40,287 nt of DNA, taken from positions 1-40,287 of the forward strand of contig DAIDJG010000392.1 of assembly GCA_027451445.1 (NCBI GenBank), read 5' to 3'. The notes under the pieces are model-generated. The model had not been told where the DNA came from. It did no database searches and saw nothing but the letters and a program-made list of their open reading frames with translations. This document shows positions 6,001 to 40,287 of the stretch, in pieces. Within the stretch, counting starts at the first letter, position 1. Every line of letters begins with the position of its first letter. The stretch is from Singulisphaera sp. (GTDB lineage Bacteria; Planctomycetota; Planctomycetia; Isosphaerales; Isosphaeraceae). The position numbers and the translations under genes are program-made.

Positions 6001-9000
6001 GTGGGTGGACACCAATGGCAATGGCATCGTCGACTCGTCCGAGTTCAACGTGATCGAGCTCCAGATCCGCCACGATGTGAACATTTCGGCGTCGGGCACG
6101 GTCAACGTGACGGCCGGTGGCGATGTCCTGCTCGGCTCCAACGGCAGCCTCTCGCTGGGCCAGGTCGTCGCCGATTCGGCGACCGCGGGTCCGCAAGAGG
6201 TTCGCATCAAGGTCTCGGACAACATCACCTCGTCGAGCAGCGCACTCGGGGGGGCCAACGTCCAGGGGTCGAACGCCGTCCTCGAAGCGGCGGACGGTTT
6301 CATCGGCGCGTCGACCAACCCGATCACGATCGACCTCAACGGTGCCTTGACCGCCCGCGCCGCGGGGAACATTTACATCAAGGATCTCTCGGGAACCCTG
6401 AACGTCGGCTTCATCTTCTCCACAGGCAGCGTCACGCTCGAATCGACCGGCACGATTGTGGACGATAACGTCGTCGCCGGTGAAACGGTGACGAACGTCG
6501 AGGCCGAAGACAATATCGAGTTCATCGCCAACCAGGTTGGCACCAGCACTCAGGCGCTGGTTGCGCAAATCGACGGCTCGGGGGCCGTGGGCGGCACGGT
6601 GACCAACAGTATTTATCTCTCCTCAGGCGGCGATCTGCCGGTCAACGACCTGGTGTCAACGCAAGGCTCCATCGACGTCACGAGTGATGGTGACCTCGAG
6701 TTGGGCTTCCTCCGCGCTCTCAAGGGCTCGATCTTCGTCGAATCGTTCTTCAAAGACGTTCTCGACAACAACGGCAGCGCCTTGAACCTCCAGGCGCCGA
6801 CGATCACACTCGAAGCCCCCGAGGGCCAGATCGGAACGTCGAGCGACTTCATCGACTACGTGAACACCGCCAGCATCTCCACCTCGGCGCCTCTCGGCAC
6901 GTATGTTACGCCGGTCCCGCTCCCCACCGGAATCTTCTACGTGGGTGCCGAGCCGACCAATGCGTATGGTTCGCAGGTGGTCCTCGCCGACTTCAACGGC
7001 GACGGCTATACCGACGCCGACATCAACGGCAGCATCTTCCTGAACGATGGCCACGGCAACTTCACCAACTCGGGCGTGACCGTCAATAGCACCTACGTCG
7101 GCGACCTCGAGAGCGACGGCGACATCGACGCTGTGGTCCTCAAGAACGCCGACTCGCTGCAAATCCGCCTTAATCAGGGTGGCACCCACCTCGGGACGGA
7201 AGGCACGTTTGTCAACGGGCAGACGATTTCGATCCCGCAGATTGGCAGCTACCCCGTCTTCGTCAATTCGGCGGCGGTCGCCCTGGCCGACTTCAACGGT
7301 GACGGCTACGAGGACATCGCCGTGGGAAGCTACAACGACGACGGTGTCTTCGTCTTCTACAACAACGGCCTGGGCGAGTTCCCAACGTACAAGTTCTTCT
7401 CTACCGGGAACGTCGCTCCGTGGTCGCTCCAGGCCGCCGACCTCAACGGTGACAGCGTCCCCGACCTGCTCGTCGGCTCCGATACCCACACCTACGGCGT
7501 GTTGCTCAACAACGGCAGCGGCACCCTGACGCGCCAGAGTCAGCAGCTCAGCCCCTCGAGCTCGCCGAACAACGTCACGATTGGCGACGTCAACGGCGAT
7601 GGCTACAACGACCTCTTCTTCGCCACCAGCTCCGGCAACCAGGTCTGGCTCAACAACGGTAGCGGAGCCTTCACGAACACCGGTCAGAGCCTGGGCACCG
7701 GCAATACGCAGCAGGTCGTGCTGGGCGACTTCCGGGGCCAGGACGTGCTCGACGCGTTCTTCGTCAACAACGGCTCGCCGAGTACCGTGTGGTTCAACGA
7801 CGGCTCCGGCAACTTCACCAACAGCGGCCAGTCCCTGGCCGCCAGCGGCAACATGACGGCCCTGGGCGGAGCGTCGGCCGACCTCAACAACGACGGCGTG
7901 CCCGATGTGTTTGTCTCGCAGGCCCTGGGTAACGACATCGTCTGGCTGAATGAGACCCCGCCGTTCATCAGTGTCGGGCAATCGTTCACCGCCTACGAGC
8001 ACAACGCGGTTGGCACCGTGATCGGCACCGTCGCCGCGGGCGACCAGGATTCGACCGACCCGCTCTCCTACGCGATCACCGACGGCAATTCCGCGGGCTT
8101 TTTCGCCATCAACGCGTCGACCGGTGTGTTGACTCTGGCCAGCAACACGGGGTTCGACTACAGCACCCTGGCCGCGAATGGCGAGAGCTCGTTCACGCTG
8201 ACAATTCAGGTGACCGACCGCACCGGCCAGACCGCGTCCGAGCCGGTGACCATCAACGTCGGCCACTTCACGCAGTCGCCGTCGATCGTATCAGGCCAGT
8301 CGTTCTCGATTGATGATAATGCCGCCGCGGGAACGAGCGTCGGCACGGTGCAGGTGACCGACGCCGAGTTCGCGCACGGCGACACGATCGCCAGTTACTC
8401 GATCGTCGGCGGAACGGGTGCCAGCCTCTTCGACATCGACTCTGCCACAGGTGCGCTGACCTACAACGGCAGCTCGGCTCTGAACGCCAGCGATACCGGC
8501 AATTACTCCCTCACCCTGCTGATCGAAGCCGCCGACGTCATCGGTCTCACCAACAACCTTCAGAACAGCTCGTCGCTGCTCACGATCAACGTCAACTACA
8601 TCAACAAGCCCCCCGTCGTGTCCACGCAGACGATCACGACGTACGACGGCTTTACCAATGGGACCTTGCTCGGCCAGGTCCAGGCGACCGACCCGCAAGG
8701 CGGCACGTTGACGTATGCACTTGTCCCCGACGGCTCCAGCGGTTTCGTCAGCGTCGACAGCGCGACCGGCAATGTTTACGCGACACAGAGCGTGCTGGTC
8801 GGAGTGGAGTCCGAAGCAGAGAACCTGGTCAAGGTCACGGATTCGGACGGCCTCTCGACGATCGGAGTCGTCTACGTCGACATCTTGCCGTACACGAACT
8901 CCCTCACGTTCAGTAACTCCACCGCCTCCGTGGTCGAGTTTGGCAGCAGCAACCAACTCGTCACGACCATGGCCGCGGCCGATGCCGACACCGCGAACGG

Positions 9001-12000
9001 CGACACGATCACCTACTCGCTCCAGTACGCCAACGCGATCGAAACGAACAACGACACGGTCGATGCCAGGAGCCTGTTCACGCTCAACAGCAGCACCGGC
9101 CAACTCTACGTGAATGCCTCCTCGATCGACGCCACTCAGACCAGCGAGTTCCAGGTCGGCGTGAAGGCGACTGATTTCACGGGCAAGACCGCAACGGCCA
9201 CCGTCACGGTCACAGTCGAGTTCACCGCGACTCCGCCAACCCTCAGCGGGGGCACGTTCTCCCTCTACGAAAACCCGCTCGACGGCACGGTCGTCGGCAG
9301 CGTGACCGGGCAGGAGCAGGACCCAGGCGACACGCTCACGTACTCCCTCGTCAATTCCGGCGGCCCGTACGCGATCAATGCCAGCACGGGCCAGATCACC
9401 GTCGGCAACGGCAGCGTGCTCAACTACGCCAACGACCCACAATACGACAGTGACACGTTCCTGGTGAAAGTGACCGACCTCATCGGCAACTCGGCCACGG
9501 CCAACGTGACGGTCAATCTGATCCAGTTCACCAACGTGCCGGTGAATACGAATCTGTACGACGCGACCGTTCCGGAGGAGTCGCCCGTCGGCACAACCCT
9601 GTTCCGTGCCAATACCCCCGCGCTCTACGATTCCGACGTCAACCTCGGCGACCGCCTCACGTTCGCCCTCTATTCGACCACCGATCCCGGCGCCTTCACC
9701 GTCGATTCCAGCACCGGCAATGTGACGATCGCCGACAACAGCAAGTTCAATTACAACACGGCCAACTTCAACGTCACGAACCCGACCTCGAGCGGCCCCG
9801 CGCCGGAGGTCGGCAGCCTGGTCGAAAGCATTACCAATACAGACGGGGACGTGGCCTACATTCCGATCTCGGTCTTCGTCACCGAGATCTACAAGGTTCC
9901 CACAATCACGGGTGGTCAGTCCTTCAGCCTGGCCGAGAATGCCGCCAAGGGGACCCAGGTCGGACAGATCGCCGGTTACTACAACTACGGCGACACGTGG
10001 TCGATCCTCTCGGGCGACCCGAACGGCGCGTTTACGATCGATAGTCAAGGAAACCTGAGCGTCGCCAAGGCGGGTACTTTGGACTACCTGCAACAATCGA
10101 CGTACACCTTGCTGGTCGAGGTCCAAACCAGTATGGGCGACTCGACGGAGCAGACCGTCACTGTGAACCTGTCTTACGTCGCTCAGCCCGACCTGGCCGT
10201 TTCCGAGACCGCTTCGAAGACGGCCTACGTCAAGCTCGGCGACACGGTCACCTACACGATCGTCGCCAGCAACCCGGGCAACGTGGCGGCCACCGGCGCA
10301 ACTGTCACCGATTACTTCAACGGGCTGCTCGATCCCGTCCTGACGAGCGTCCAGACGGCTGGCGGAGCCTCGACGTCGCTCACGGCGGGTGCGTTGACGC
10401 TCCCGCTTGACGATACGGTCAACCTGCCCGTCGGCGCTACGATCACGTACACCGTCCAGGGCACGGTATCACTCAACGCGAAGTACGCCATTCCGGCCAA
10501 TGGCATGATGCGGAGCGCCGCGGTTATCAATTCGTCGCTGACAGACATCAATACGTCCAATAATTCGGCCGCAGCCGATCTGCTGATCGAGCTAACGGGG
10601 ACCGCCGGCTCCGGCACATTCGTCAACTCCAACCAGAGCGTCAGCAGCGGCGGCGCGACCGGCAATCAGGTCGAGCTCGGCGACCTCAATGGCGAGGGTT
10701 ACCTCGATGCGGTCGTGGCTGCCGGCAATGGTGTGTATATCTGGATGAACGACGGACACGGTAACTTCTCCCTGAGCCAGACCCTTTTGGTTGATGCCAA
10801 CTCGGTGGCCCTGGGTGACCTCAACAACGACGGCAGCCTCGACCTCTTCATCGGCACCAGCTCCAATGCCCAGGTCTGGCTGAACAATGGCCATGGGACA
10901 TTCACCGACACGGGCCAGAAGCTAACCTATGATCGGTCGGACACACAGCCTGTGCGTGACTTTACGGACGTGGCACTCGCCGACGTCAACGGGAACGGCA
11001 ATCTCGACGCCATCGCGTCCAACCCCGACGGTGACAACGTCAATGTCTGGATCAACGATGGCACAGGCCACTTCACCAATGAGTTGTTCACGTCGACCGG
11101 GATCGGCAGCCAGCAAGACCTGGTGATCGGCGACGTCAACAATGACGGTCTACCCGACCTCTTCGAGACGGGCTCCCTCAATACCTTCTTTGAGAGTCTC
11201 AACGCCGGCAGCGGCCTGTTCTCGAACCAGCCAACAGCCCTGACGCCGGGCTCGCAGCAGATTACAGGCATCAGTCTCGCCGACTTCAACAACGATGGCT
11301 TCCTCGAACCCTTCCTGAGCGTCGTTTCCGACGGTACTCCCACCGGCGGCGACTTCGTGTTCGTGAACGACGGCACCGGCTCGTTCCCCACCGACACGAT
11401 CATCGGCACCGGCCACACCACGGCCTCGGCCATTGGCGACCTCACCGGCAACGGGAATATGGACATCCTGACGCTCGACGCCAACGGTAACAGCCAGGTC
11501 TGGTTGAACGAAGGCGCCGGCGACTTCACGCCGCTCTCGTTCGTGGATTCCAACGTCTACAACGGCGTCGCGCTCGGCGACCTCGACGGCAACGGCACGC
11601 TCGACGCCTTCGCCGTCGGCTCGAATGGAAACGCGGTCTACTTCAACCACACCGCGCCCGTCGTCACCGGCCCGTCCGGCGTCAACGTTACGGAGAACAC
11701 CTCGGCGTCCGTCAAGCCACTGTCCCTCAGCGATTACGACAGCGCCAACGGCTCGATCAGCGTCAATTTCAGCTCGACCAACGGCAACTTCAGCATCAAC
11801 AATCAGACGGGCAGCTCCGTCACGATCAGCGGCACACAGAGCCAGTTGAACGCGCTGTTGCCGACACTGGTCTTCACGCCCACAACCAATTTCCACGGCA
11901 GCACCAGTATCGTCATCACGTCGAACGATGGCGTGGTCTCGCAGACGCTGACGGTCCCCGTGACGGTGGCCTTCGCCAACATTCCGCCCACGCTCAACGT

Positions 12001-22932: not shown

Positions 22933-23709
22933 TCAGGTCCCGAACTCGGGCCGGCGCGCCGAGAGCTGTGACTGCAACCGCTGAATGATCGACGAATGCA
23001 TTTGTGACACCCGCGACTCGCTCAGGTCGAGCGTGGCGCCGATCTCCTTCATCGTCAATTCTTCATAATAATAGAGAATGATGATCAGCCGCTCGTTCCG
23101 GTTCAGACCCTTGGTCACCATGCGCATCAAATCTTTGCGCTGGAGGCGGCGGGTGGGGTCCTCGCCTTTCTTGTCTTCGAGGATGTCGATCTCGCGGACG
23201 TCCTTGTAGCTGTCGGTCTCGTACCACTTCTTGTTGAGGCTGATGAGGCCGACGGCGTTGGCGTCGAGCGCCATCTTCTCGTATTCCTCGAGCGGCAGGC
23301 CGAGGCGTTCGGCGAGTTCGGCGTCGGTGGGAGGGCGGCCGTGCTGGGCTTCGAGGGCCTTGCGGGCCTCTTCCATCTTGGTCGCCTTCGAGCGCACGAG
23401 GCGAGGGACCCAGTCCATGGTCCTCAGCTCGTCGAGCATCGCGCCCCGGATGCGGGGGACGCAATAGGTCTCGAACTTCACGCCCCGGTTGAGGTCGAAG
23501 GCGTCGATGGCATCCATCAAGCCGAAGACCCCGGCCGAGATGAGATCGTCGAGGTCCACCCCTTCGGGCAGACGCTGCCAGATCCGCTCGGCGTTGTACT
23601 TGACCAGGGGCAAGTAGCGTTCGACCAGCCGGTTCCGCAAGGGCGTGGTGGGGCGTTCCTTGAACTCCCGCCAGAGTTCCGTCACGTCCACGTCCAGCTT
23701 TGTTGTCAT
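22933..23709 (-). CDS. fliA: Flagellar sigma factor sigma-28 (FliA/WhiG family)
   Basis: A 258-residue sigma factor. Start ATG at 23709 has a strong GGAGG six bases upstream; the frame continues upstream to 23919 without protein-like sequence. Region 2 is complete (LVKYNAERIWQRLP, then DLDDLISAGVFGLMDAIDAF and FETYCVPRIRGAMLDELR), followed by region 3 (ARKALEAQHGRPPTDAELAE) and region 4 with its helix-turn-helix (LTMKEIGATLDLSESRVSQM). Length fits the family (about 240-260). It directs RNA polymerase to late flagellar and motility promoters. It is the last gene of the flhA-flhF-flhG-fliA block, after a 310-base gap, so it may also have its own promoter. I see no FlgM-type anti-sigma gene nearby. 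Confidence 0.93.
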   Translation of the reverse strand: MTTKLDVDVTELWREFKERPTTPLRNRLVERYLPLVKYNAERIWQRLPEGVDLDDLISAGVFGLMDAIDAFDLNRGVKFETYCVPRIRGAMLDELRTMDWVPRLVRSKATKMEEARKALEAQHGRPPTDAELAERLGLPLEEYEKMALDANAVGLISLNKKWYETDSYKDVREIDILEDKKGEDPTRRLQRKDLMRMVTKGLNRNERLIIILYYYEELTMKEIGATLDLSESRVSQMHSSIIQRLQSQLSARRPEFGT

Positions 23710-24019
23710 CCTTGACCTCCATGTCGCCTGCGCGGGAGGGAGCACATCCATGTGCACAGCGGGGGGCAAAACGTCCCGGTTGCGATCCCGGGTCATTCGG
23801 GGGTGCGGTTTCGGTCTCGACGGGGGTACCCCAGAGCGTTCGCCCTGGCGTGCAACGGGTCGAGCCTGCCGTACTCCCTTCCCTGCATACCCTTCGCGGT
23901 CCAAGGAACCCGGTCCCATCTTAAATATCGGACGATTGGTGGAACCGGCTTGAGTCCTATCCTCGAGATAACCGTTACAACGGGGAGCCCTCGGGCCGCC
24001 AAGACGAAAGACCTGTGTC
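23710..24019. other. Gap between flhG and fliA, no gene seen
   Basis: This 310-base stretch separates flhG from fliA. The fliA frame is open through part of it, but the translation is Arg/Pro-rich and not protein-like. A short CCGT/ACGG hairpin lies at 23972-23983. On the minus strand an AT-rich patch (GATATTTAAGATG, near 23930) could hold a -10 element, but I cannot define a full promoter. Confidence 0.5.
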
Positions 24020-24931
24020 TTAGCGCGCCACGCGGCTCAAGGCCCAGCGCGTCGCGAGCGTTGCAAAGAAACCGGGGCGGCGGTTCCTCGGCTGTCGTTC
24101 TTCCAGCACCGTCCGGGCCAGCCGGCGCACGCCCTTCGAGGCGACGGCGGTGGGGAAGGCCGAGACAAAGGGCTGGCGAAGCCGCACCGCTTGCGCCACG
24201 CGGGGATCGGCCCGTACGTGCCCCAACGGGGTCACGACGGTCCCAAGAAACTGCCGGCTCGATGCCGTGAGGCGTGTGAGCACGTCCGAAGCCTCAGCGA
24301 CCGACACCGCCTGGTTGACGACGGTGCGGAGGCGAGGCGGACCGGGTAAGCGTCTGAGGCGTTGGATCGCGGCGTGCGCGTCGGCCACCGAGGTGGGTTC
24401 GGGCGTTGTGACCAGCACGACTTCACCCGCCGCGGCCGCGAGCGTGGCGATCCCCGGGCCGAGCCCCGAACCGGCGTCGACGATCAAGAAGTCGGCCTCG
24501 GCCTCCAGCGCGGCGAGCTCGTCGGCGAGCCGGGTCGCACCCTCGCTGAGGACGTCGACCAACGTTCGCATCCCATGCGCCCCGGGGACGATCTGCACGC
24601 CGCCCGGGCCTTCAATAATCGCGTCGGCCAGCGATGCGTCGCCCGCGAGGACGTCGCCCAGGTCGAACGGCGGTGACAGACCGCACAGCAGATCGATGTT
24701 CGCCAGCCCGAGGTCGGCGTCGACCAGCACGACCTTGGCGCCGCACTCCCCCAGCGCGATCGCCAGGTTCAGCGCCAGGTTTGACGTGCCGACTCCTCCC
24801 TTGCCGCTGGTGAACACGAGCGTACGGGTCTGCAACGGCAAGGGGCATGACCGCTCCGGAGGATCGGCCAGGACCGCTGTCCCCGACCGCGCCCGGACGA
24901 GCTCTCTCAGGGCATCGGCTTGATCGGACAT
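24020..24931 (-). CDS. flhG: MinD/ParA-like flagellar number regulator FlhG (FleN/YlxH) with altered P-loop
   Basis: A 303-residue MinD-family protein beginning MSDQADALRELV, which contains the DQAxxLR motif known in FlhG to stimulate the FlhF GTPase; its position right at the N-terminus supports ATG 24931. The deviant Walker A reads SGKGGVGTSN: the signature lysine (K44) is present, but the P-loop lysine expected at residue 49 is threonine (codon at 24785-24787). Walker A' (VVLVDADLGLANIDLL) and the Walker B region (FLIVDAGSG) are intact. The C-terminus is basic and could form an amphipathic membrane-binding helix (FFATLATRWALSRVAR). The family controls flagellar number and placement with FlhF. 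ATP turnover may be impaired or altered here. Confidence 0.88.
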   Translation of the reverse strand: MSDQADALRELVRARSGTAVLADPPERSCPLPLQTRTLVFTSGKGGVGTSNLALNLAIALGECGAKVVLVDADLGLANIDLLCGLSPPFDLGDVLAGDASLADAIIEGPGGVQIVPGAHGMRTLVDVLSEGATRLADELAALEAEADFLIVDAGSGLGPGIATLAAAAGEVVLVTTPEPTSVADAHAAIQRLRRLPGPPRLRTVVNQAVSVAEASDVLTRLTASSRQFLGTVVTPLGHVRADPRVAQAVRLRQPFVSAFPTAVASKGVRRLARTVLEERQPRNRRPGFFATLATRWALSRVAR

Positions 24932-25004
24932 AGGCTCCTCATATCAAAATGGCAACGCTATCGTTTTTGTACTTTGGAGTAACCCGAAGTGGACGAAGCA
25001 TCTG

Positions 25005-25108
25005 ACTCCCTCCCCCCTTGTGGGGGAAGGTTGGGGTGGGGGGTTCGAGCGGCCAAAGGTGATGCGACACCCCCCACCCCGGCCCTCCCCCACAAGGCGG
25101 GAGGGAGT
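25005..25108. repeat. GC-rich inverted repeat between flhF and flhG
   Basis: A left arm at about 25005-25044 (beginning ACTCCCTCCCCCCTTGTGGG) and a right arm at about 25069-25108 (ending CCCCACAAGGCGGGAGGGAG) are near-perfect complements with a 24-base loop. The element fills nearly half of the 228-base gap between flhF and flhG. If transcribed, the stem would sit in the middle of the flagellar mRNA and could attenuate or protect it. Confidence 0.75.
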
Positions 25109-25159
25109 AATTCAGTTTCTGCGTTCCCATGGTTTGCAATCTTTTGAACCGTATCGTGT

Positions 25160-26308
25160 TTATGCAACCACCTCATCGCCCAGGATCAGCCGCGCCAGCC
25201 TCCGGCGGTCGGCCGGCTCGATGTCGTCGGGCACGGCCTGGCCGGTCGTCAGGTAGCTCACTGGCCGGTCGGCCTGACCGAGGAGCGCCAGCACGCCTCC
25301 CAGGCCATCCGCCTCGTCGAGCTTCGTGAGGATCAAACGATCGGCCTTCACGTGTGCAAACCGCTCGACTGCGGAGCGGAGACTCCGCTCACCCGCCACG
25401 GCACTGAGGACGAGGTGGACCTCGTCGGGTTGTGCCGCCGCCAGGAAATCAGCCAGTTCGCGGATCTTCACTTCGTCGCGAGGACTGCGCCCGGCCGTGT
25501 CAATCAGCACGAGATCGACATCGCCCAGCTCTTCGACCGCCCGCGTCATCTCTCCCGGGGCATTGGCCACGGCCAGCGGCAGGCTGATGATTTCGGCATA
25601 GATCCGAAGTTGCTCGACGGCGGCGATCCGATACGTGTCCACCGTGACCAAGCCCGGCCGGAACCCCTGGGCAAGCTTGAAGTTGGCCGCGAGCTTCGCG
25701 ACGGTGGTCGTCTTGCCAACCCCCGTCGGTCCCACCAGCGCGACAACTCTCCTTGCTCCCGGCACCGCGCCGATCGGCGGCGCAATTGAGATGCACGACT
25801 CAACCGCCGCACGGAGCGCATCACGCACTGCTTCCGGCCTCGCAGCCTCATCCGGCTCCAGGCGCTCGGCGACCTCCCGCACAAGCCTGCGTGCCAGCAC
25901 CTCTGGCACCTCGGCCTCGAGCAACTGTGCGTAGATCGGCACGAGCTCACTCGGTAGTTCGGGCAGCAGGTGATCGATCCGTCCTTGCTTGCTCAAGTCT
26001 TCGACCATCGCGTGCAGCCGGCTGAGCTGCTCGCCGAACTGTGCGTGCAAGGCGCCGGGAAGCACACTCCCCGTCGACGTAAACGTGGACGACGCCATCT
26101 TCATTACGGGAACCGAGGGCGCCGCCGCGGGCGCTTCGGTCTGACTATTGGCTGCGGTCACTTCGATCAATTCGCGCGTTCCCAGGCCGAACAAGCGACG
26201 ACGGCGCACTTCGCGCGTGCCGAGGATCACCGCCCCGCCACCCAGGTCCTGGCGCACTTGCGCGAGCGCCTCGCGCATCGTGCCCGCTCGGTAGGTTCTC
26301 GCTCTCAT
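25160..26308 (-). CDS. flhF: Signal-recognition-particle-type GTPase FlhF
   Basis: A 382-residue protein with start chosen at ATG 26308 (MRARTYRAGTMREALAQVRQ, the typical FlhF opening; AAGG upstream); a TTG seven codons further upstream is possible. The N-terminal B-domain-like part (to about 110) is followed by the helical N region and the SRP GTPase G domain: G1 VGPTGVGKTTTVAKLAANF (about 190), the DTYRIAAVEQLR block (about 220), G3 DTAGRSPRD (about 269) and G4 TKLDEADGLGG (about 328). All nucleotide-binding residues are intact. FlhF places the flagellum at the pole and recruits early basal-body components, with FlhG, encoded next, as its activator. It follows flhA by 83 bases. Confidence 0.93.
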   Translation of the reverse strand: MRARTYRAGTMREALAQVRQDLGGGAVILGTREVRRRRLFGLGTRELIEVTAANSQTEAPAAAPSVPVMKMASSTFTSTGSVLPGALHAQFGEQLSRLHAMVEDLSKQGRIDHLLPELPSELVPIYAQLLEAEVPEVLARRLVREVAERLEPDEAARPEAVRDALRAAVESCISIAPPIGAVPGARRVVALVGPTGVGKTTTVAKLAANFKLAQGFRPGLVTVDTYRIAAVEQLRIYAEIISLPLAVANAPGEMTRAVEELGDVDLVLIDTAGRSPRDEVKIRELADFLAAAQPDEVHLVLSAVAGERSLRSAVERFAHVKADRLILTKLDEADGLGGVLALLGQADRPVSYLTTGQAVPDDIEPADRRRLARLILGDEVVA

Positions 26309-26391
26309 GCGGCCTTCGACCTTTCGCAAAGGATCGAGTGACTTCTTAGGGTTACGCTAGAATTATTTGCCAATAACTTTATCGAACGATC

Positions 26392-28542
26392 TCAATAATT
26401 CACCAACGTCGTCGCAATCGACGTCACCGACTCCGGTTCTTCCTCGACAACGCTCCCGAGCGTTTCAACGGGTGTATCGCGGGGAATTTCGCGCTGGCTG
26501 AGGACGACGAGCCGGGGAAGGTCCGCACGCGTGAGGTCCTTGAGAACGGGACGGGCCTCAGCCGACGCGAGGACGACCGGGGGATAGCCCGCTTCGATTA
26601 ACGGAGCCACCGCCAGAGCCACGGCACGCAGCAGGCTGCGCGAAGTGTCGGTGCCGAGCGCGGCATCGGGACGTGTCTCGGCCTCGCGGCCGGCGGCGGA
26701 GAGCCGGGCGTCGACCGTGGGGGCGAGCGCGACGACGTGCAGACGGCCGTCGGGGCTGCGATACTGTTCGGTAATTCGCCGGGCCAGACCTTGGCGCACG
26801 AGCTCGGTCAAGACATCGGTGTCCTTGATGCGGCCGGCGTGCACGGCGAGGGTTTCCAGGATCGTTTCGAGGTCGCGAACGCTCACGCGCTCGCGGAGCA
26901 GGTTTTGCAGCACGCGCTGAACTTCGCCGGCGCGGAGCAACGTGGGCACGACTTCCTCGACCAGCGCAGGTGCCGTGGCGCGGGTGCGGTCGAGCAGGCG
27001 TCCGACCTGTTCGCGGGTCATGAGCTCATCGGCGTGACCGAGCACGATTTCACCGAGGTGGCCGGCGACCACGGCCGAGGCCTCCAGGATGCGGCAGCCA
27101 GCGAGTTCGGCGACCTCGCGTCCGTCGGCGTGGATCCAGACGGCGGGCTGACCGGTCATCGGATCGACGCCGTCTCGGCCATCGGGCCGGGAGGTTAGGC
27201 CCGCAGGAGGGACCGCGAGGAGTCGGCCGGCGTAGGCAATCCCTTGTCCAACGACCGTTCCACGGATCTTGAGCCGGTATTCGTGCGGACCGAGGCTGAG
27301 CTCGTCGCGGATCCGGACCTGCGGCACGATCAGCCCGAGGTCTCGCGCGACGCGTTGGCGCACCCCCCGAATGCGGTCGAGCATGTCCCCACCGCGAGTC
27401 GGCTCCGCCAGAGCAATGAGACGGTAGCCGATCTCCAGTTCGAGCGGGTCGACGTGTAGCAAATCCTCCATCCGCTCGCCCGCGGGCTCGCTGACGGCCG
27501 GCGCGGCGGTGTTGGAGGCCTCGACCTCGGCGTCGGCCGCGTCGGTCTCCGCCGATTCCGCAGAGGCGCCCTGGAGAACCGCCGCGATCCCGAGCGCAAA
27601 GGCGAGCGTCAGGAGCGGAATCTTCGGCAGTGCGGTGAACGACAGCAGCACGAGGAAGCCCGCGGCAATCGCGAGCACTGTCCGACGGCCCAGCAACTGG
27701 CCCACCACATCGCGCCCGAGGTCCGTGTCCGACGATGACCGGGTAACGATCAGTCCGGCAGCTAGTGAGATCAAGAACGCGGGCACCTGGCTCACCAGTC
27801 CGTCGCCGATCGTCAGCTTGGTGAAGACGTTCACGGCGTCGCTGAGGCTCATTCCGTAGTTGACCACGCCGAGAAAGAGCCCTGCGCCAATGTTGATGAG
27901 TGTGATGATGATGCCCGCGATCGCATCGCCCCGGACGAACTTGCCAGCCCCGTCCATGGCGCCGAAGAAGTCGGCCTGGCGATAGACGAGCTCGCGGCGG
28001 CGGTGTGCCTCGTGCTGGTCGATCAGCCCGGCGTGGAGATCGGCGTCGATCGCCATCTGGCGGCCGGGGAGCCCGTCGAGCATGAACCGCGCGGCGACTT
28101 CGCTGATGCGCGTGGCTCCCTTGGTGATTACGACGAACTGGATTACGACCAGAATCGCGAACAGGATCGCGCCCACGACAACCTGGTCGCCCGCAACGAA
28201 CTCACCGAACGCCCGGATCACGCCGCCCGCAGCATCCAGCCCGTAATCGCCTCCGCGCGTCAACACGAGGCGGACGGTGGCGACGTTCAGGACCAGCCGG
28301 GTGAGGGTGGTCGTGAGCAGGATCGTGGGAAAGGTGCTGAAGTCCTGGGGCGTCCGGATGGCCAGGGTGGTCAAGAGGATAAGGACGGCGAGCGTGATGT
28401 TGGCCGCCAGCAGGAGGTCGAGGACGGCCGGTGGCACCGGCACGACGAACACCAGGATCGCGCCGACAATCGTGACCGGCAAGATCACGCCCCCAAGGCG
28501 CGACCAACCGGAAACGGCAGGGCTCGGTGTTGTGGGAGGCAT
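26392..28542 (-). CDS. flhA: Flagellar type III export gate protein FlhA
   Basis: A 716-residue protein from ATG 28542, which has GGAGG seven bases upstream; the open frame extends 14 codons further to a GTG without support. The N-terminal half has about eight transmembrane segments and the FHIPEP signature region RRELVYRQADFFGAMDGAGK plus FVRGDAIAGIIITLINIGAG (about residues 180-215). The hydrophilic C-terminal half (from about 330) is the cytosolic ring domain, including LELEIGYRLIAL, IRDELSLGPHEYRLKIRG and a MTREQVGRLLDRTR block. FlhA energises and selects substrates for flagellar export. It is the first gene of the minus-strand flagellar block; flhB is not in the window. Confidence 0.95.
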   Translation of the reverse strand: MPPTTPSPAVSGWSRLGGVILPVTIVGAILVFVVPVPPAVLDLLLAANITLAVLILLTTLAIRTPQDFSTFPTILLTTTLTRLVLNVATVRLVLTRGGDYGLDAAGGVIRAFGEFVAGDQVVVGAILFAILVVIQFVVITKGATRISEVAARFMLDGLPGRQMAIDADLHAGLIDQHEAHRRRELVYRQADFFGAMDGAGKFVRGDAIAGIIITLINIGAGLFLGVVNYGMSLSDAVNVFTKLTIGDGLVSQVPAFLISLAAGLIVTRSSSDTDLGRDVVGQLLGRRTVLAIAAGFLVLLSFTALPKIPLLTLAFALGIAAVLQGASAESAETDAADAEVEASNTAAPAVSEPAGERMEDLLHVDPLELEIGYRLIALAEPTRGGDMLDRIRGVRQRVARDLGLIVPQVRIRDELSLGPHEYRLKIRGTVVGQGIAYAGRLLAVPPAGLTSRPDGRDGVDPMTGQPAVWIHADGREVAELAGCRILEASAVVAGHLGEIVLGHADELMTREQVGRLLDRTRATAPALVEEVVPTLLRAGEVQRVLQNLLRERVSVRDLETILETLAVHAGRIKDTDVLTELVRQGLARRITEQYRSPDGRLHVVALAPTVDARLSAAGREAETRPDAALGTDTSRSLLRAVALAVAPLIEAGYPPVVLASAEARPVLKDLTRADLPRLVVLSQREIPRDTPVETLGSVVEEEPESVTSIATTLVNY

Positions 28543-28977
28543 CCCTTCCCCTCCACGACCATGTGACGGAACCAAATCGCGCACGTATCACGGGCGAAGC
28601 GAAGGCATACGTGGCGAGCGTCCTTGCTCGACCAAGGCCGCCGTCTCTACTCAGAGACGTCGGCGCCATCTGCCGCTGCCGTACTAGCGTCGGGAACCCG
28701 ATCGGTGACTTGCCTCAGACGTGTGGCGGGACGATAACGCGATTCGACTGGGGTGTCCAGATCGAAACCGACCGCTCGTCGCGGACGCGGACATACGTTC
28801 GGGGACCGGCCCACCACCGTTGCTCTCAGGGTTTTCTCAACGCGCGAAGTCTGCCTAGACCATACCCTTTTCCACCCGCACGGAAACGCGTTGCGGATTC
28901 ATCCTGGCCCATGGGTCCGACCGATACGAAAAGGGCTAAGGGCCAATGTCTCGAAGTTGAGATTTCGAGGGGTAACG
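28543..28977. other. Divergent intergenic region between flhA and the histidine kinase
   Basis: This 435-base region must hold promoters for both directions. I find no confident sigma-54 or sigma-28 site. The nearest thing is TGGC (28612-28615) with TTGC (28624-28627) on the plus strand, one base too far apart for sigma-54. A patch GGCGAGCGTCCTTGCTCG has partial dyad symmetry. Short open frames here do not look coding. Confidence 0.5.
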
Positions 28978-34350: not shown

Positions 34351-35109
34351 ATGAACGTGCATCGTGCGTTCTCGAAGGTCAGCGCGTGCGCCCTGGCCTT
34401 GTGGGCGTTGGCGGGAGGTGTGTCGCGAGCCGACCAACTGGCCGGGATCATCAAATCGGTCGATACGTCAGCGCGGACACTCCGGGTGTACGAGAAGACG
34501 ACCGACCGCCCGTTCAACGTTGTTGTTGCGCCGAACACGGTGATCACCTCGATGAGCGGGCGCCCCCTTACGATGAAGGCTTTGAGACGAGGGGACGGCG
34601 TGGGCGTTTCGCTCTATAACGGAATCGCCACGGTCATCGTCGTGAACCAAACGGCGCTGTTGGGCGTGGTGGAATCGATCGACCTCGACGGGAAGACGTT
34701 CACCCTGGACGAGAAGGGAACGGATCGCGATGTCAAAGTCGCCATCTTACCGAACACGACCATCGAAACGCCGGACGGGAAGAATCTTCCCTTCAAGGAC
34801 CTCAAATCGGGAGACGGCGTGAGCGTGAATTTCAACGGTGAGGATGTCGCGGTCGTCGTCGTGAACGCCAAACCCGACGAAATGACCGGACACATCAAGA
34901 CCGTTGCCGCCGATCTCAAGTCGTTCGTCATCACCGATATTGCCACGAAGCGGGAGGTCAGGGTCGCCGTCACGCCGAAGACCAACATCGTGACGTCGGA
35001 GGGGAAGACGATGGAACTGCGCCAACTCAAAAAGGGTGACGGAGTCGGCATCGCTCACAACGGGAGCGTCGCGTCCAAGATCGTCGTGAACCCGGCCCCG
35101 GCGCAGTGA
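34351..35109 (+). CDS. Secreted protein of three tandem DUF5666-like domains
   Basis: A 252-residue protein from ATG 34351 (GGAAAGGG seven bases upstream). The signal peptide is clear: basic start, AFSKVSACALALWALAGG, likely cleavage after SRA at about residue 27. The mature part is three copies of one about 70-residue unit. Each opens with GxIxSVD-type sequence (GIIKSVDTSARTL, GVVESIDLDGKTF, GHIKTVAADLKSF), has a central V-A-x-x-P-x-T-x-I segment, then LKKGDGVGV-type and closes with IVVN. This resembles OB-like DUF5666 domains. Periplasmic or extracellular; function unknown. Confidence 0.8.
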   Translation: MNVHRAFSKVSACALALWALAGGVSRADQLAGIIKSVDTSARTLRVYEKTTDRPFNVVVAPNTVITSMSGRPLTMKALRRGDGVGVSLYNGIATVIVVNQTALLGVVESIDLDGKTFTLDEKGTDRDVKVAILPNTTIETPDGKNLPFKDLKSGDGVSVNFNGEDVAVVVVNAKPDEMTGHIKTVAADLKSFVITDIATKREVRVAVTPKTNIVTSEGKTMELRQLKKGDGVGIAHNGSVASKIVVNPAPAQ

Positions 35110-35260
35110 CCGACGCTACTGGCGAGTGTCGCGCAGACTGAGTATGATGTGAACGCCTCAAGAGAACTGAATTAATTAAGAGTGCTGATATATCGGGATG
35201 GCAGAGACGGAGCCTCGCCCTCCCAGATCCATCAAGCGATTCTTCGTTGAGCTGAAGGCG

Positions 35261-37459
35261 TTATTCCTGAGGAAGTCCTCGCTGAGCGCGCTCAGCCTGG
35301 GAAAGTGTCTGTTCAACCTGGGTCAGCAAGGGCGTTCCTTCGAGGTTGGCGTCACGAGCCACACGCTCGAGAGTTGGGCGCAGCCGGCGATCGTCGAGTG
35401 CGATGAGGACCCGGAGCGCCACGTCGCGAACGGCGGGCGACGCATCGGAGTCCGCCAGCAGCGCGGCGAGACGTTCGCGGATGGCGTCGTCGTTGTGCTC
35501 GGCGTGATCGAGAAGCTGGGCGGCGGCGCGAGCGGCGGCGATGACGATTTCATCACGGCGCGAGCTGAGGGCCTCGCGCACGATCGGCAGGGCTTCGGCC
35601 GCGCGCAGGTCGCCGAGCGCGATCAACGCGGAGTCGGCCAGCGGATCGCCAGGGGTGCGCGCGATCTTGAGGAGCTGGGGGACGATATCTTGCTGGTCGA
35701 GCTTCGCCAGGACGCGGATTGCGGGGGCGTTCCAGGCGAGGTCGTTGCTGGTTTGCCAGCTGCGACGCAGCTCGGGGATCGCCTTCGGATCGCCGATCGC
35801 CGCGACGGCGGCGACGGCCTCTTCACGCAGTGTGGTTTGCGACAGATGCTCCAGGGCGACGGTGTAGCCCTCATGGAAGCCGTGGCGTCCAAGGAATGCC
35901 ACGAGCCGGAGCTTGCGCGAGACGTCGGCCTCCTCGTCGAGATGGGGCCAGAGCGCGCTCGCGGCCTCGTCGGTGTCGATCTTACGCAGGGCTTCCATCG
36001 CGTAGGACCGAACGGGGAATAGCTGAGGATCGAGCAGCGTCGACACGATGGGGATCAGGCGCGCGTCGGCAACGTTGGCACACGATTCGGCGAAGGCAAG
36101 ACGCTCGCGAGGGCCGAGCGAGCGTTTCCAGGCTTTCAGGAGCGCCGGGGTGGCCGTCTCCCGAGGGAGTTGTCCCAGCAAGGTGAGCTCGACGCTCACG
36201 TCGAGCCCTGCGTCGTGTTTACGTTCAATGCGATTGGCGACCAGGTCGGCGGCCTTGGGGGCATCGAGGCGAACGAGCGCTCGGCCGGCAACGTCCTGGA
36301 TGCTGTCCGGGGCATCGAGAAGCAAGGTTTCGTAGGTGCGCGAGACCTCGGCGCCTCCCACCGACGCCGGGAGCGTACCGAGCACATGGAGCCGTGCTGT
36401 GAGCTCGGCGAACGTTGCGGCGGGTTGCTTCGCGTTGCGCCACGCCAGGGCCGTCGGCGTACGCAGCAACGCCGGTGCGCCCGCTGCGCCGAGCGCGTTG
36501 ATCAACGCGACCCGGACGCCGAGGTCGGGGCCAGAGTCGGCCAGGGCGGCGGCCAGCGCCACGGCGGACTCGGTCTGGAATCGGTTTGGGTCCGGTGCTC
36601 CGCGATCGGCGCGCGGACTGGGGATGGCGCCGAGCATTGCCCCGAGCGTCTTGGCGGCAACCTCGCGGATCGCTGGTGAGCCTGTTTTCAGGTGGGGCAA
36701 GACCGCCTCGGCGATCGCCGGATCCTGCGCCGCGGGAAGCGCGCGCCGTCCCAGGGCGAGGAGCAATGGGGCCGCGTCGCGGCCTTTCGCCCCTTTCAAT
36801 CCATCGCGAAGCAACGCGACCCTCTCGGCGCGGTCGCGCTTGCGCATTGTCGCGATCAGTACATCAACAGCCGCAAGCAACGGGTCGTCCTTGCTGTCGA
36901 GGCGAGGGATCGACTGGGCAAGCGTTGCAACACCGCTGCAGTTGCAATTGAAATAACCCTGACCCTGCCGGCCGAGCAGCACCAGCATGAGCTGACCTCG
37001 TTCGAGTCGATCGGCCCCTTCGGCGAACCGATAGATTCCCAGGTCCTGGCCCGTCATCAACAACTCGGTGCGGGCGAAGATCCCCTTGAGCACGCGAATG
37101 GGCTCAAGGCGATATTGCTGTGTTACCTGCACGTTCTGGCCGCCGTGGATGATCTTGGTCTCGGTGACGTCTACGAGCCGCACGGCCAGAACGAGCTCAG
37201 CCTGCGCGACGGCAGGCTCCAGGTCGAGGATCCCCGTCCGTGCCGTGGGATCAAGCAGGGGCAAGAGGATTCTATGAGGCGGGATGAACCCCACATCCTG
37301 CTCGAGTGAGAGGGGTGGCAAAGACCTCCGGCCCTTGACCTGACCCCGGGTTGATGCTGTGAGGGCAGCGCAAGCTACAGTCGCTATCCCAAGGACCCAC
37401 AGTGGACCACCGAGTTGGAAACGGCACGTCGGCGGCTTCCCCGAGCCTGTGTCGAACAT
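35261..37459 (-). CDS. Secreted HEAT-repeat protein
   Basis: A 732-residue protein from ATG 37459 (GGGGAG nine bases upstream). A hydrophobic segment at about residues 18-36 (LWVLGIATVACAALTAST) is probably a signal peptide or anchor. Residues about 60-190 form a beta-rich N-terminal domain with a CNC motif (YFNCNCSG). From about 220 to the end it is alpha-helical HEAT/PBS-type repeats (GSPAIREVAAKTLGAMLG; SRRDEIVIAAARAAAQLLDH). Such solenoids serve as protein-binding scaffolds, and planctomycetes encode many secreted ones. It converges with the plus-strand gene ending at 35109. Confidence 0.85.
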   Translation of the reverse strand: MFDTGSGKPPTCRFQLGGPLWVLGIATVACAALTASTRGQVKGRRSLPPLSLEQDVGFIPPHRILLPLLDPTARTGILDLEPAVAQAELVLAVRLVDVTETKIIHGGQNVQVTQQYRLEPIRVLKGIFARTELLMTGQDLGIYRFAEGADRLERGQLMLVLLGRQGQGYFNCNCSGVATLAQSIPRLDSKDDPLLAAVDVLIATMRKRDRAERVALLRDGLKGAKGRDAAPLLLALGRRALPAAQDPAIAEAVLPHLKTGSPAIREVAAKTLGAMLGAIPSPRADRGAPDPNRFQTESAVALAAALADSGPDLGVRVALINALGAAGAPALLRTPTALAWRNAKQPAATFAELTARLHVLGTLPASVGGAEVSRTYETLLLDAPDSIQDVAGRALVRLDAPKAADLVANRIERKHDAGLDVSVELTLLGQLPRETATPALLKAWKRSLGPRERLAFAESCANVADARLIPIVSTLLDPQLFPVRSYAMEALRKIDTDEAASALWPHLDEEADVSRKLRLVAFLGRHGFHEGYTVALEHLSQTTLREEAVAAVAAIGDPKAIPELRRSWQTSNDLAWNAPAIRVLAKLDQQDIVPQLLKIARTPGDPLADSALIALGDLRAAEALPIVREALSSRRDEIVIAAARAAAQLLDHAEHNDDAIRERLAALLADSDASPAVRDVALRVLIALDDRRLRPTLERVARDANLEGTPLLTQVEQTLSQAERAQRGLPQE

Positions 37460-38022
37460 CGTTCACATCTCCCCTGGAAGGAATGAAAGGAATGAAGGTT
37501 CGGTGCGTCGTCGGGTGTCCCCGACGGCTGCTTCCGCGACGAAATGACGGCGAATTCGCATCTATAATTCTTAGCGCGTGTTATCGCGCGACGGTCTCTA
37601 AATAACATTGCATGAACATAAAATATATTATAAGGCATGCTGGTGTCATGTCTCCCCGACCCCAGCCACCTCGTGTGGCTGGTGAAGGAGGTCTCCGGCT
37701 AGTCGTCGTGGTGCCGTGTTTTGCCGACCCCAGCCACCTTGTGTGGCTGGTGAAGGAGGTCTCCGGCTAGAGACGGGCGACCGCTAGCCAGCGACCTCCT
37801 TCACCACCCGCACAAGGCGAGTGGGGTCGTACGTACCTGGGCAACGTGTCTAGCCAATGACCTCCTTCACCATCCCCACAAGGCGGGTGGGGTCGTGTGA
37901 TGGCGTGCGATGCATCGCATCTCGGGCCAAACGCAGCGGGTGCAGACAGCATGCGACTTGCCCAAACCAAAGCCGTGCGTCCAGACGCGTCCCAAGCTAC
38001 CGCAAGGTTATTCAGATGACGC
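37460..38022. other. Repeat-rich intergenic region
   Basis: This 563-base region has no gene. From 37500 to 37650 it is AT-rich with a small hairpin (GCGCG-TGTTAT-CGCGC near 37573) and a TATAAT on the minus strand (37627-37632) lacking a properly spaced -35. From 37657 to 37895 it carries the four-copy hairpin array described separately. The last 120 bases show nothing recognisable. Confidence 0.6.
37657..37895. repeat. Four-copy hairpin repeat array, two direct plus two inverted
   Basis: Four ungapped 46-base copies: 37657-37702 and 37725-37770 in plus orientation, 37784-37829 and 37850-37895 in minus. Each has an 8-bp inner hairpin with a 5-base loop (CTTGT or CTCGT), an invariant TGAAGGAGGTC, four variable bases and GCTAG. 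Outer GACC and GGTC segments can also pair. Stem bases differ between copies yet mostly keep pairing: CCAGCCAC/GTGGCTGG in copies 1-2, CCACTCGC/GCGGGTGG in copy 3. Copy 4 keeps six of eight pairs. The array as a whole is also a large palindrome. Confidence 0.85.
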
Positions 38023-39237
38023 TCAGCGCTCGCAGCGGCAGTCTTCCTGAGCGCTCCGCTCGAGACCGTGATTCACACCCAATTCCGCCCAGAGCGCGTT
38101 CAACTCGGCCTGCGATAACCCCTGGCTCGTGTTCGGACAACTCAAATTCAGGCTGTGGTGCGTGTGAGGAACTCCGGTCGAGAGCTCTTGAGGCGTGCTT
38201 GCTGAGACGAGGTCCAATCGTGCGGAACTGCTCAACAAGACGACGGCCGCGCAGAGTGTCAGGGCCGTAGAGACCGCGCGCACGCAGAGGGACCAGGGTT
38301 TTGGACAGGTCGGCTCAACGCAGAACTTACCGTTAAGAAGCAGCGTGATGCGCTTCGTCAGCATCGATGACCGCCCCCACAAGCCGAGCGACGGGGCGAG
38401 CATGCTCGCGGCACGCCCGCCAGTTCGGGACCAGGAGAGCAAGGCTTCGGCGTAGGCGATCCGCCCTTCGCGTGCAGCGGCTTCCGCGTCGGCCAGCAGC
38501 TCCTGGTCGGCACGGATCGCGCGGCGAAGCCAGGCGTACAACGGATGCGCGAAGAGCAACGGCAGCAAGAGCCGGCTCAGCGCAAGCGTCCAGAGATCGC
38601 CGTTGCGGATGTGTGCCCACTCGTGTGCGAGCGCCGCCTCAATGCGGCTCACCGGCTCTGACTTGGCAAATCGCGTGGGAAGAACAATGGATGGCCGGAT
38701 CAGCCCCACGGCGACCGGATGACAGACCGTCGCACTCACGACCAGCCGGGGAGCCCTCGCTCCGTCGTCGACGACTCGATTCAAGATCTGTATGACCTTA
38801 TCGGGCACTCCGCTCGCTGACCGAGCCAGCCGGCCCGACGCGATCGCGCCGAGGCCCAACCATGCGACCATCGCGCCCGACCCGCCTGCGAACGCGACGA
38901 AGATTGCCGTAAGTGAGTTTGAAGGCCGGTTCGGAGCAGGTGTCGTTATCGTCGAAACGTGCAATGCGGAGGGCTCGGGGCAACACCCGCCTGTCCAGCG
39001 CGCCGTGCTCGTGATCCTTGGTTTGCTCTCGCGCTGCGGAACTGACCGTGTTCCTCTGGCAACAGCGGTGATCGGGACGAGCAGCACGAGGGAGACAAGT
39101 GCCGAGCGCGCGACGACCAATCGACGCGCTGGCTGTCGGAGCATAAGCATGATCAAGCCTGTCACGGTCAGGACGACCGTCGAGAGCAGGTACACCTCTG
39201 CCAGCCAGGCCCCGGCCGGTCGGATCCACGAGCTCAT
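38023..39237 (-). CDS. M56-family (BlaR1/MecR1-like) membrane metallopeptidase
   Basis: A 404-residue membrane protein from ATG 39237 (GGAGGG five bases upstream), overlapping the repressor gene by four bases (ATGA). Transmembrane segments appear at about 10-32, 40-60, 108-132, 225-245 and 310-330. The zinc site HEWAH (about residue 203, in AALAHEWAHIRNGDLWTL) and the downstream DQELLADAEAA helix match the M56 family. There is no C-terminal penicillin-binding sensor domain as in true BlaR1; instead a short tail ends in CRCER. In this family the peptidase senses a signal and triggers cleavage of the paired BlaI-type repressor. The stimulus is unknown. Confidence 0.88.
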   Translation of the reverse strand: MSSWIRPAGAWLAEVYLLSTVVLTVTGLIMLMLRQPARRLVVARSALVSLVLLVPITAVARGTRSVPQRESKPRITSTARWTGGCCPEPSALHVSTITTPAPNRPSNSLTAIFVAFAGGSGAMVAWLGLGAIASGRLARSASGVPDKVIQILNRVVDDGARAPRLVVSATVCHPVAVGLIRPSIVLPTRFAKSEPVSRIEAALAHEWAHIRNGDLWTLALSRLLLPLLFAHPLYAWLRRAIRADQELLADAEAAAREGRIAYAEALLSWSRTGGRAASMLAPSLGLWGRSSMLTKRITLLLNGKFCVEPTCPKPWSLCVRAVSTALTLCAAVVLLSSSARLDLVSASTPQELSTGVPHTHHSLNLSCPNTSQGLSQAELNALWAELGVNHGLERSAQEDCRCER

Positions 39238-39662
39238 CGTGTCCCTCCTTGCTTGTCTTTGCCGCCCCCTTGCCCACGCCTCATGGTTTGTTGTTTGACC
39301 TCGGCGATCATACGTTCGAGGTTCTCCAGTTCCTCGAGGCTCGGCCGCTTCGACTGAAGCGCCCGGGCGACGTACTCGCCGAGTGCCCCGTCGAAGACCC
39401 GGTCGAGGAACCCTCCCGCGAGCCGCCGAAAGACGCTGTCGCGCCGGACTTTCGCGTAGTACGCATAGGCCTTGCCGGCGGCCTCGTGGCCGACGAGTCC
39501 CTTTTCCTCCATGGTCTGGAGCAGGCTGAGGACGGTCGTATAAGCCAGGTCCCCATCCGTGGGTCGCAGCTCCGCGTAGATCTCCCGTACCGTGGCCTTG
39601 CCCCGGGACCAGAGAACTTTGAGCGCTTCCAGCTCTCGGCTGGTCGGCAGCGTTTCCGACAT
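39234..39662 (-). CDS. BlaI/MecI-family transcriptional repressor
   Basis: A 142-residue protein from ATG 39662 (AGGAG with a six-base spacer). The N-terminal winged helix (residues about 5-75: SRELEALKVLWSRGKATVRE, then YTTVLSLLQTMEEKGLVGHE) and the helical dimerisation part (GGFLDRVFDGALGEYVARAL) match BlaI/MecI. It is likely to bind its own promoter region and be inactivated when the M56 peptidase, encoded by the overlapping next gene, is activated. The C-terminal tail is basic and Gly-rich (RRGQGGGKDKQGGTR), longer than needed for dimerisation. Confidence 0.92.
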   Translation of the reverse strand: MSETLPTSRELEALKVLWSRGKATVREIYAELRPTDGDLAYTTVLSLLQTMEEKGLVGHEAAGKAYAYYAKVRRDSVFRRLAGGFLDRVFDGALGEYVARALQSKRPSLEELENLERMIAEVKQQTMRRGQGGGKDKQGGTR

Positions 39663-39703
39663 ATCGATCTCCTACCAGGTCGATTCGTGCATCGACGTCT
39701 CCT

Positions 39704-39732
39704 ATAGTACTGCCCGACCCGTAGGTTGGCAA
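39704..39732 (-). promoter_or_regulatory. Sigma-70-type promoter of the BlaI/M56 operon
   Basis: On the minus strand TTGCCA (39727-39732) and TACTAT (39704-39709) are separated by exactly 17 bases, about 40 bases before the repressor start codon. The -10 overlaps the small palindrome AGTACT, and GACGTC lies just downstream; either could be part of the repressor's operator, but no classical TACA/TGTA dyad is obvious. Confidence 0.65.
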
Positions 39733-39739
39733 GAGAGAC

Positions 39740-40287
39740 GGTCCGACAGAACTCTGGGATGACGCGTGGACACCGTGTGCCACCCAACGAGCCCCGCTCT
39801 ATCTTCGCCCTTTACCAGTCAAGACCGAGTTGCCCCAGGGCGATGAGGATGATGGATGAGTGTTAATATGGTGTAATATAGAGAATTTTATATATAAATG
39901 TCACTATAATCGTATTATTCTGTAACGAGCCATGGCTCGTTTTCGTGGCAGCACCGGCAACGGTAGGGACTGACCGTCAAGCCCCAGGACGAGAAGAGTC
40001 GACTAAAAATCGAGCTCCCAATGCACGTCCTGGCGTCCTTACGGCGTCATGCAGGTTGAAGAGATGGTAGCAACCAGAGAAAGCTTAACGCCAGCACCGA
40101 AATTGCATGTTCTTCCTTTTTCCTACGTTTTTTTCCTCTTTTGACCAAAAGATGATATCTTAGAGTAAACCTCTAGTTACCGGCTGTTCGGGAGGGATTC
40201 ACGAGTCTTCTTTGCACAGCATAGAGCTTCACAAATCCTTCAGATGATCCGCTCTGGCGCTCGCCCGGTCGAGGACCAAACCGAGCC
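39740..40287. other. Non-coding right end with AT-rich island and palindrome
   Basis: I see no gene in these 548 bases. An AT-rich island (about 39850-39925, containing several TATA-like runs and a TATAAT at 39905-39910) ends in an 18-base perfect palindrome AACGAGCCATGGCTCGTT (39924-39941) followed by TTTCG. Further right, T-rich stretches (about 40115-40145) and another AT-rich patch precede a gene that probably begins beyond the edge. Confidence 0.55.

Follow-up and report, generated by a model that had tools for sequence, protein, structure and literature searches.

The DNA analysed in the present study (the window) is a stretch of 40,287 nucleotides from the genome of Singulisphaera sp., a planctomycete genome of 10.9 Mb (G000). 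Two parts of the window were characterized by inspection: a 4946-aa open reading frame at 155-14995, with many cadherin-like and Ig-like repeats, is probably a giant surface protein, and several frames on the minus strand at 22933-28584 look flagellar (FliA-type sigma factor, MinD/FlhG-like, FlhF and FlhA). The region of interest lies between two genes of the minus strand, with a BlaI-like gene (function named by inspection) beyond the second one, and holds the following features.

35264 to 37459, minus strand: flanking gene, a 732-aa open reading frame with its start codon toward the element; a 95% identical copy lies on contig C471
37599 to 37600: TA, left target-site copy, from the sequence; the nested insertion on contig C22 and the comparison with C471 fit a TA duplication
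37601 to 38012: miniature inverted-repeat element of 412 bp with four hairpins, based on terminal inverted repeats (TIRs), the TA flank and a hairpin-free site on C471
37601 to 37616, plus strand: left TIR, AATAACATTGCATGAA, degenerate further in (2 mismatches against the family consensus in a pattern search)
37657 to 37702, plus strand: hairpin unit 1, reading CGACC, 8-bp stem, CTCGT loop, stem, TGAAGGAGGTC, TCC and GGCTAG
37725 to 37770, plus strand: hairpin unit 2
37784 to 37829, minus strand: hairpin unit 3, with a compensatory C-G at pair 9-23
37850 to 37895, minus strand: hairpin unit 4, degenerate, with two broken pairs
37988 to 38012, minus strand: right TIR, AATAACCTTGCGGTAGCTTGGGACG (pattern search, 1 mismatch)
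38013 to 38014: CA, the right-hand copy of the target site, one change away from TA, from the sequence and the C471 comparison
38023 to 39239, minus strand: other flanking gene, an M56/BlaR1-like peptidase by inspection, with its 3' end toward the element

The array consists of four 46-nt units that align without gaps, as the original prediction had described, in the orientation ++-- with the GGCTAG tails directed inward, and TGAAGGAGGTC is present in all four. The arm pairs were also as stated there, with G-C at pair 9-23 in units 1 and 2 replaced by C-G in unit 3 and with A-T versus G-C at pair 12-20, but unit 4 breaks both of these pairs (C/A and G/G). When folding was compared with shuffled sequences, units 1-3 gave z values of -2.2 to -2.6, whereas unit 4 was no better than its shuffles (z -0.3), and the predicted fold of the whole array is a single long inverted-repeat hairpin, not separate hairpins. 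Each window unit can also be read as an open frame with a terminal stop, DPxRLxRxVxEx(G/S)-stop.

What the earlier reading missed is the TIR-bounded mobile element and the dispersed repeat family around the array. The 12-mer GTGAAGGAGGTC occurs 67 times in G000, against 3 occurrences of the reversed control pattern, and a covariance model (R1) gave 126 matches at E <= 0.1, most of them below 1e-9, so the units are not due to chance. With up to 9 mismatches allowed, about 114 units were found in 48 clusters, 13 of which are single units, 12 are ++ and 11 are ++--, with few others; ++-- is the commonest multi-unit layout after ++. The consensus unit in this genome is CGACC-CCAGCCRC-CTTGT-GYGGCTGG-TGAAGGA-GGTC-NNN-GGCTAG, and the conserved parts are the 5-nt loop CTYGY, the 3' flank GGTGAANGAGNTC and the tag RGCTAG/A, which is located downstream of GGTGAANGAGNTC-NNN. 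In an alignment of 62 copies (55 distinct), 40 cells showed changes on both sides of a pair, compared with 12.8 +- 3.6 after shuffling and at most 3 for control structures slid along the alignment. The compensatory changes are therefore real, in agreement with the selected fold that had been proposed.

The clusters of G000 also share sequence outside the units, the outermost part of which is an inverted repeat, TA-AATAACCTTGCRSGAACTTGGGACG, and TIRs of this kind are almost confined to the surroundings of hairpin clusters in this genome. A hairpin-free relative on C22 is inserted within the tag of a unit, with GGCTA before and TAGC after it, which fits a TA duplication. Elements of about 170 bp with the same TIR type and no hairpins were observed at C22:3731-3899 (L080) and C296:53972-54140 (L194). 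Moreover, both flanking genes and the intergenic region are also present on another contig of this assembly, C471 (C471:8606-10796 and upstream, locus L342, 93-95% identical to the gene pair within window 34500-40287), where the element is absent. The junction, aligned by eye, reads GTCATC-CG-GAAT-CCGTTGCG on C471 and GTCATC-TG-element-TA-GAGA-CCGTCGCG in the window, with no length change other than the element. The C471 segment may represent a segmental duplication or paralogue, or a second strain (the contamination estimate is 4.77%), and the difference may reflect loss of the element instead of gain. In the same-genus genome G001, units are absent and the flanking gene has no match, so no comparison was possible there.

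No autonomous DDE element with the TIRs of the window was recovered in G000. TIR-like ends were found at C86:1-140, C91:13646-13785, C40:1-140 and C433:14652-14791, where the contigs break inside and the assembly lacks the interior. The ends on C86/C91 and on C40/C433 resemble those of a collapsed insertion sequence, which is probably IS630-like, judging by visual inspection and by its TA flanks. A 41-aa tail of this putative insertion sequence gave no Pfam match and no plasmid match. The DDE_3 (PF13358) genes of G000 were considered as partners of the TIRs and rejected, because the TIRs do not surround them.

The hairpin family extends well beyond this genome. A core pattern demanding CCC, CC, CTYGY, GG, GGTGAA, GAG and TC, with the arm columns (8, 9, 12, 13 and their partners) left free, was scanned against 84,980 species genomes. 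The 84 stretches detected belong without exception to MAGs of Planctomycetota (Isosphaeraceae and Pirellulales among them), Lentisphaerae or Spartobacteria. In the alignment of these units from other genomes, in which the constancy of the required letters is by construction, 81 double-change cells were counted, compared with 29 +- 3.5 after shuffling. Covariation thus recurs in other genomes. The distribution is patchy, with units in 5 of 392 sampled genomes of the phylum under strict filters and, among 99 relatives, only in G000 and in a second genome of the family.

The ++-- layout was observed again in several other genomes with a broader model (R2), and its carriers differ. In MaH-09apr19-81, the elements have GGGCGCACGACGCA ends and 9-bp target duplications, exact at L275 (TGAGGAATG), 8/9 at L265 and 7/9 at L209 and L231. 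Less firmly, by eye, those of KLAP142 show GGGCG...AATAA at their ends together with TNAG-like duplications, and those of LH-05nov19-129 (LH05) have TATACTCC ends with TA. As the TIRs and target duplications differ, the ++-- set appears to be carried by unrelated mini-transposons. Other arrangements were also observed, including five units in direct tandem with 74-75 bp spacing at L216:680-1022, unlike the usual ++--, and, on a contig of a viral collection (L285, IMGVR_UViG_3300047160_024480), two arrays at 1265-1604 and 11633-12098, one with the layout +++-- and one with at least 6 units in direct orientation. L285 was the one viral contig with units, and no relative of the Y1 protein described below was found among viral contigs; among plasmids, neither the LH05 element nor the tail of the putative insertion sequence nor the Y1 protein was matched.

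The Y1_Tnp genes of G000 (nine) and of 14 genomes reached through hairpin loci were listed, and about 98 loci were read. To test for a classical RAYT, the surroundings of 30 other Y1 genes and of the nine in G000 were searched for the motif, with no match. With R2, used as a sensitive model, two identical units were detected, one on each side of the Y1 gene at the lentisphaere locus L310, and the closest relative of the L310 protein is encoded at L320/L404, a locus brought in by the hairpin search. Lower-scoring Y1 loci gave four more members of this subfamily: L345 from LH05, L366 from NC_groundwater_892 (frame-broken), and L392 and L394 from Spartobacteria. Units adjoin the gene at 6 of the 6 subfamily loci, arranged as follows.

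L404: ++ gene ---
L345: ++-- gene ++--
L366: ---- gene +++--
L392: + gene -+
L394: -+ gene
L310: + gene +

A unit lies within 1.5 kb of the gene at 5/5 subfamily loci, compared with 2/92 other Y1 loci (Fisher p 3e-7); this count leaves out L404/L320, which was found through its hairpins, the figures of 2 and 92 are hand counts, and, since the genomes were chosen for having hairpins, the test covers the association within those genomes only. Family copies flank the Y1 subfamily in five other genomes, which points to the way in which the hairpins arose. Neither the nine Y1_Tnp genes of G000 include a member of the subfamily nor does KLAP142 have any Y1_Tnp match in Pfam, and the hairpins in these two genomes would accordingly be cargo of miniature inverted-repeat transposable elements (MITEs) or relics. 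The Y1 genes near units at L276 and L264 were excluded as the cognate enzyme because they belong to other subfamilies, and weak R2 matches at L306 were rejected as hairpins because they are repeated coding sequence. At that lentisphaere locus, a Y1 gene of another subfamily lies between two copies of one coding-gene fragment (626-671 and 2012-2057).

The proteins of the subfamily are about 265 aa long, and the Pfam domain Y1_Tnp covers only the C-terminal 100 residues. The HUH motif, MPDH(LIV)H, is invariant and located in the C-terminal half, which ends with YxGTF(SG)EY and a short tail; no Y-motif (YIxxQ) with the catalytic tyrosine follows the HUH, and an invariant Y---Q sits in the N-terminal half instead. 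Compared with the PDB, the N-terminal half alone gave six matches at E <= 1, all six being IS200/IS605-type transposases (best E 0.0067), with its Y---Q aligned to the Y-motif and xIQ/xLQ at the position of the HUH. A weak alignment between the two halves was also obtained for this region (E 0.004, probability 8%). These results suggest that the N-terminal half resembles a Y1 domain that has kept Y---Q and lost the HUH, and that the protein may be a fused pseudo-dimer with a composite active site, a reading based on matches that are weak but all agree. In IS608-type dimers, the active site is likewise built from two chains.

Several known systems resemble the one described here. REP/BIME/REPIN elements with their RAYT (TnpA_REP) proteins (Di Nocera 2013, PMC3733652; Quentin 2018, PMC6006769; Bertels and Rainey 2011, PMC3116915) have in common with it short palindromes in many dispersed copies, compensatory arm changes, doublets in direct or inverted orientation, tandem arrays, and copies that flank a Y1/HUH gene, the last being observed here in other genomes and not in G000. 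However, the tag RGCTAG/A lies about 15 nt from the stem and the canonical GTAG or CGTC at the hairpin foot is absent, the usual set is ++-- and is carried by TIR mini-elements, and the protein, of about 265 aa, contains a degenerate Y1-like half in addition to the first one and reaches no more than 21.9 bits with the RAYT model (NCBIfam NF047646, cut-off 80). Thus, the hairpins and the Y1 subfamily appear to work like REP/RAYT systems, without two marks that were tested, the tag and the RAYT score. The class 3 TnpA_Y1 proteins of Quentin et al. 2018, from Planctomycetes, Acidobacteria and Proteobacteria, are reported to have NHVH, a median length of 178 aa and atypical flanking structures with a CnGA foot (PMC6006769). 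Planctomycete occurrence, a motif of the Y----Q/Y---Q type and high-copy atypical flanking hairpins are shared with this class, whereas the DH(LIV)H motif, the length of about 265 aa and the position of Y---Q in the N-terminal half differ; judged by HUH type and length, the subfamily would not belong to class 3. The IS200/IS605 transposases (IS608, ISDra2) share the HUH core and include the best PDB matches, and 2 of 5 subfamily proteins pass the NCBIfam IS200 cut-off, but here the HUH and Y---Q lie in two fused halves and several hairpins are located on each side of the gene. Finally, the element of the window resembles TA-target (IS630/Tc1-type) MITEs in its size, TIRs, TA flanks, lack of genes and many copies, and differs from them in its internal load of four copies of an unrelated hairpin family.

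Herein, we propose, with a probability of roughly 0.8, that the 46-nt units are hairpins of the REP-like kind and serve as substrates of a Y1/HUH single-strand-DNA transposase, that their typical arrangement is a direct pair facing an inverted pair, and that in G000 they became the cargo of a TA-target miniature inverted-repeat element. The enzyme of the Y1 subfamily would bind, cut and amplify the hairpins. A four-hairpin set would have been taken up by the element at 37601-38012, a DDE transposase would act on its TIRs, and the spread of the element by this transposase may have placed many of the roughly 114 units in the genome. G000 may once have had the Y1 enzyme or may have received the hairpins from a host that had it. 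A protein-recognized DNA fold, one of the suggestions made originally, is thus the best reading of the array.

The hairpins could instead be structural parts of a MITE only, either subterminal transposase sites or cruciform arms, unrelated to any Y1 transposase. Most clusters of G000 do lie within TIR elements, and the subfamily enzyme is missing from G000 and KLAP142, as this explanation would expect. The same units nevertheless flank Y1 subfamily genes, where the two ++-- sets of LH05 stand without the MITE terminal repeat, the sets are found with TIRs unrelated to each other and with different target-duplication lengths, and plain tandem arrays exist (L216, L285), all of which make the explanation unlikely.

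A function in RNA, as a ribosome-binding decoy, small RNA or mRNA-stabilizing hairpin, is considerably less probable. The Shine-Dalgarno core AAGGAGGT pointed out in the original prediction is indeed present in all four window units, but it does not hold as a mark of the family, being intact in 66 of 114 units of G000 and in 1 of 46 aligned units of other genomes, and columns 31 and 35 vary freely; a decoy or small RNA is thus not supported. In addition, the inverted copies make each unit antisense to another in either transcript and turn the array into one long hairpin, and an Rfam search (E <= 1) gave only matches far under the family thresholds. In some Y1 loci, a unit is located just upstream of the start codon or at the start of the gene (L404:5998-6044, ending 18 nt from the start codon; L392:93-138 and L394:2376-2421, a few nt to tens of nt from the gene start). 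A leader role is therefore possible at these loci, where the unit could act on the translation of the transposase. That the units are protein-coding, each with the peptide given above in one frame, is hardly credible: TAG or TAA terminates 105/114 units of G000 and an in-frame stop in the variable codon occurs in one unit only, but the variation follows base pairing and not codon position, changes are free at codon positions one and two (columns 18, 35), the frame upstream shows no conservation, the stop is missing from many units elsewhere, and the RGCTAG/A tag explains the stop-like ends equally well. GTAG repeats often provide TAG stops to adjacent ORFs (Di Nocera et al., PMC3733652).

The preferred reading, that of REP-like substrates of a Y1 enzyme, can be extended to a PVC-wide system, and for this extension we consider the odds to be even. 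In such a system, a fused pseudo-dimer transposase would combine the tyrosine of its N-terminal half and the HUH of its C-terminal half into one composite site in one chain, and the four-hairpin sets would repeatedly have been taken up by unrelated DDE mini-transposons, resulting in two independent modes of spread. REP hairpins and domesticated transposases are known mostly from Proteobacteria. In the present study, one hairpin family spans three PVC groups, is associated with a transposase subfamily of its own, whose active site appears to be split, and has unrelated mini-transposons as carriers. If there is a single composite site in one chain, the cis or trans question of HUH strand transfer would be testable with simple mutants. 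Moreover, the capture of the sets by MITEs would provide datable insertion events for REP sets.
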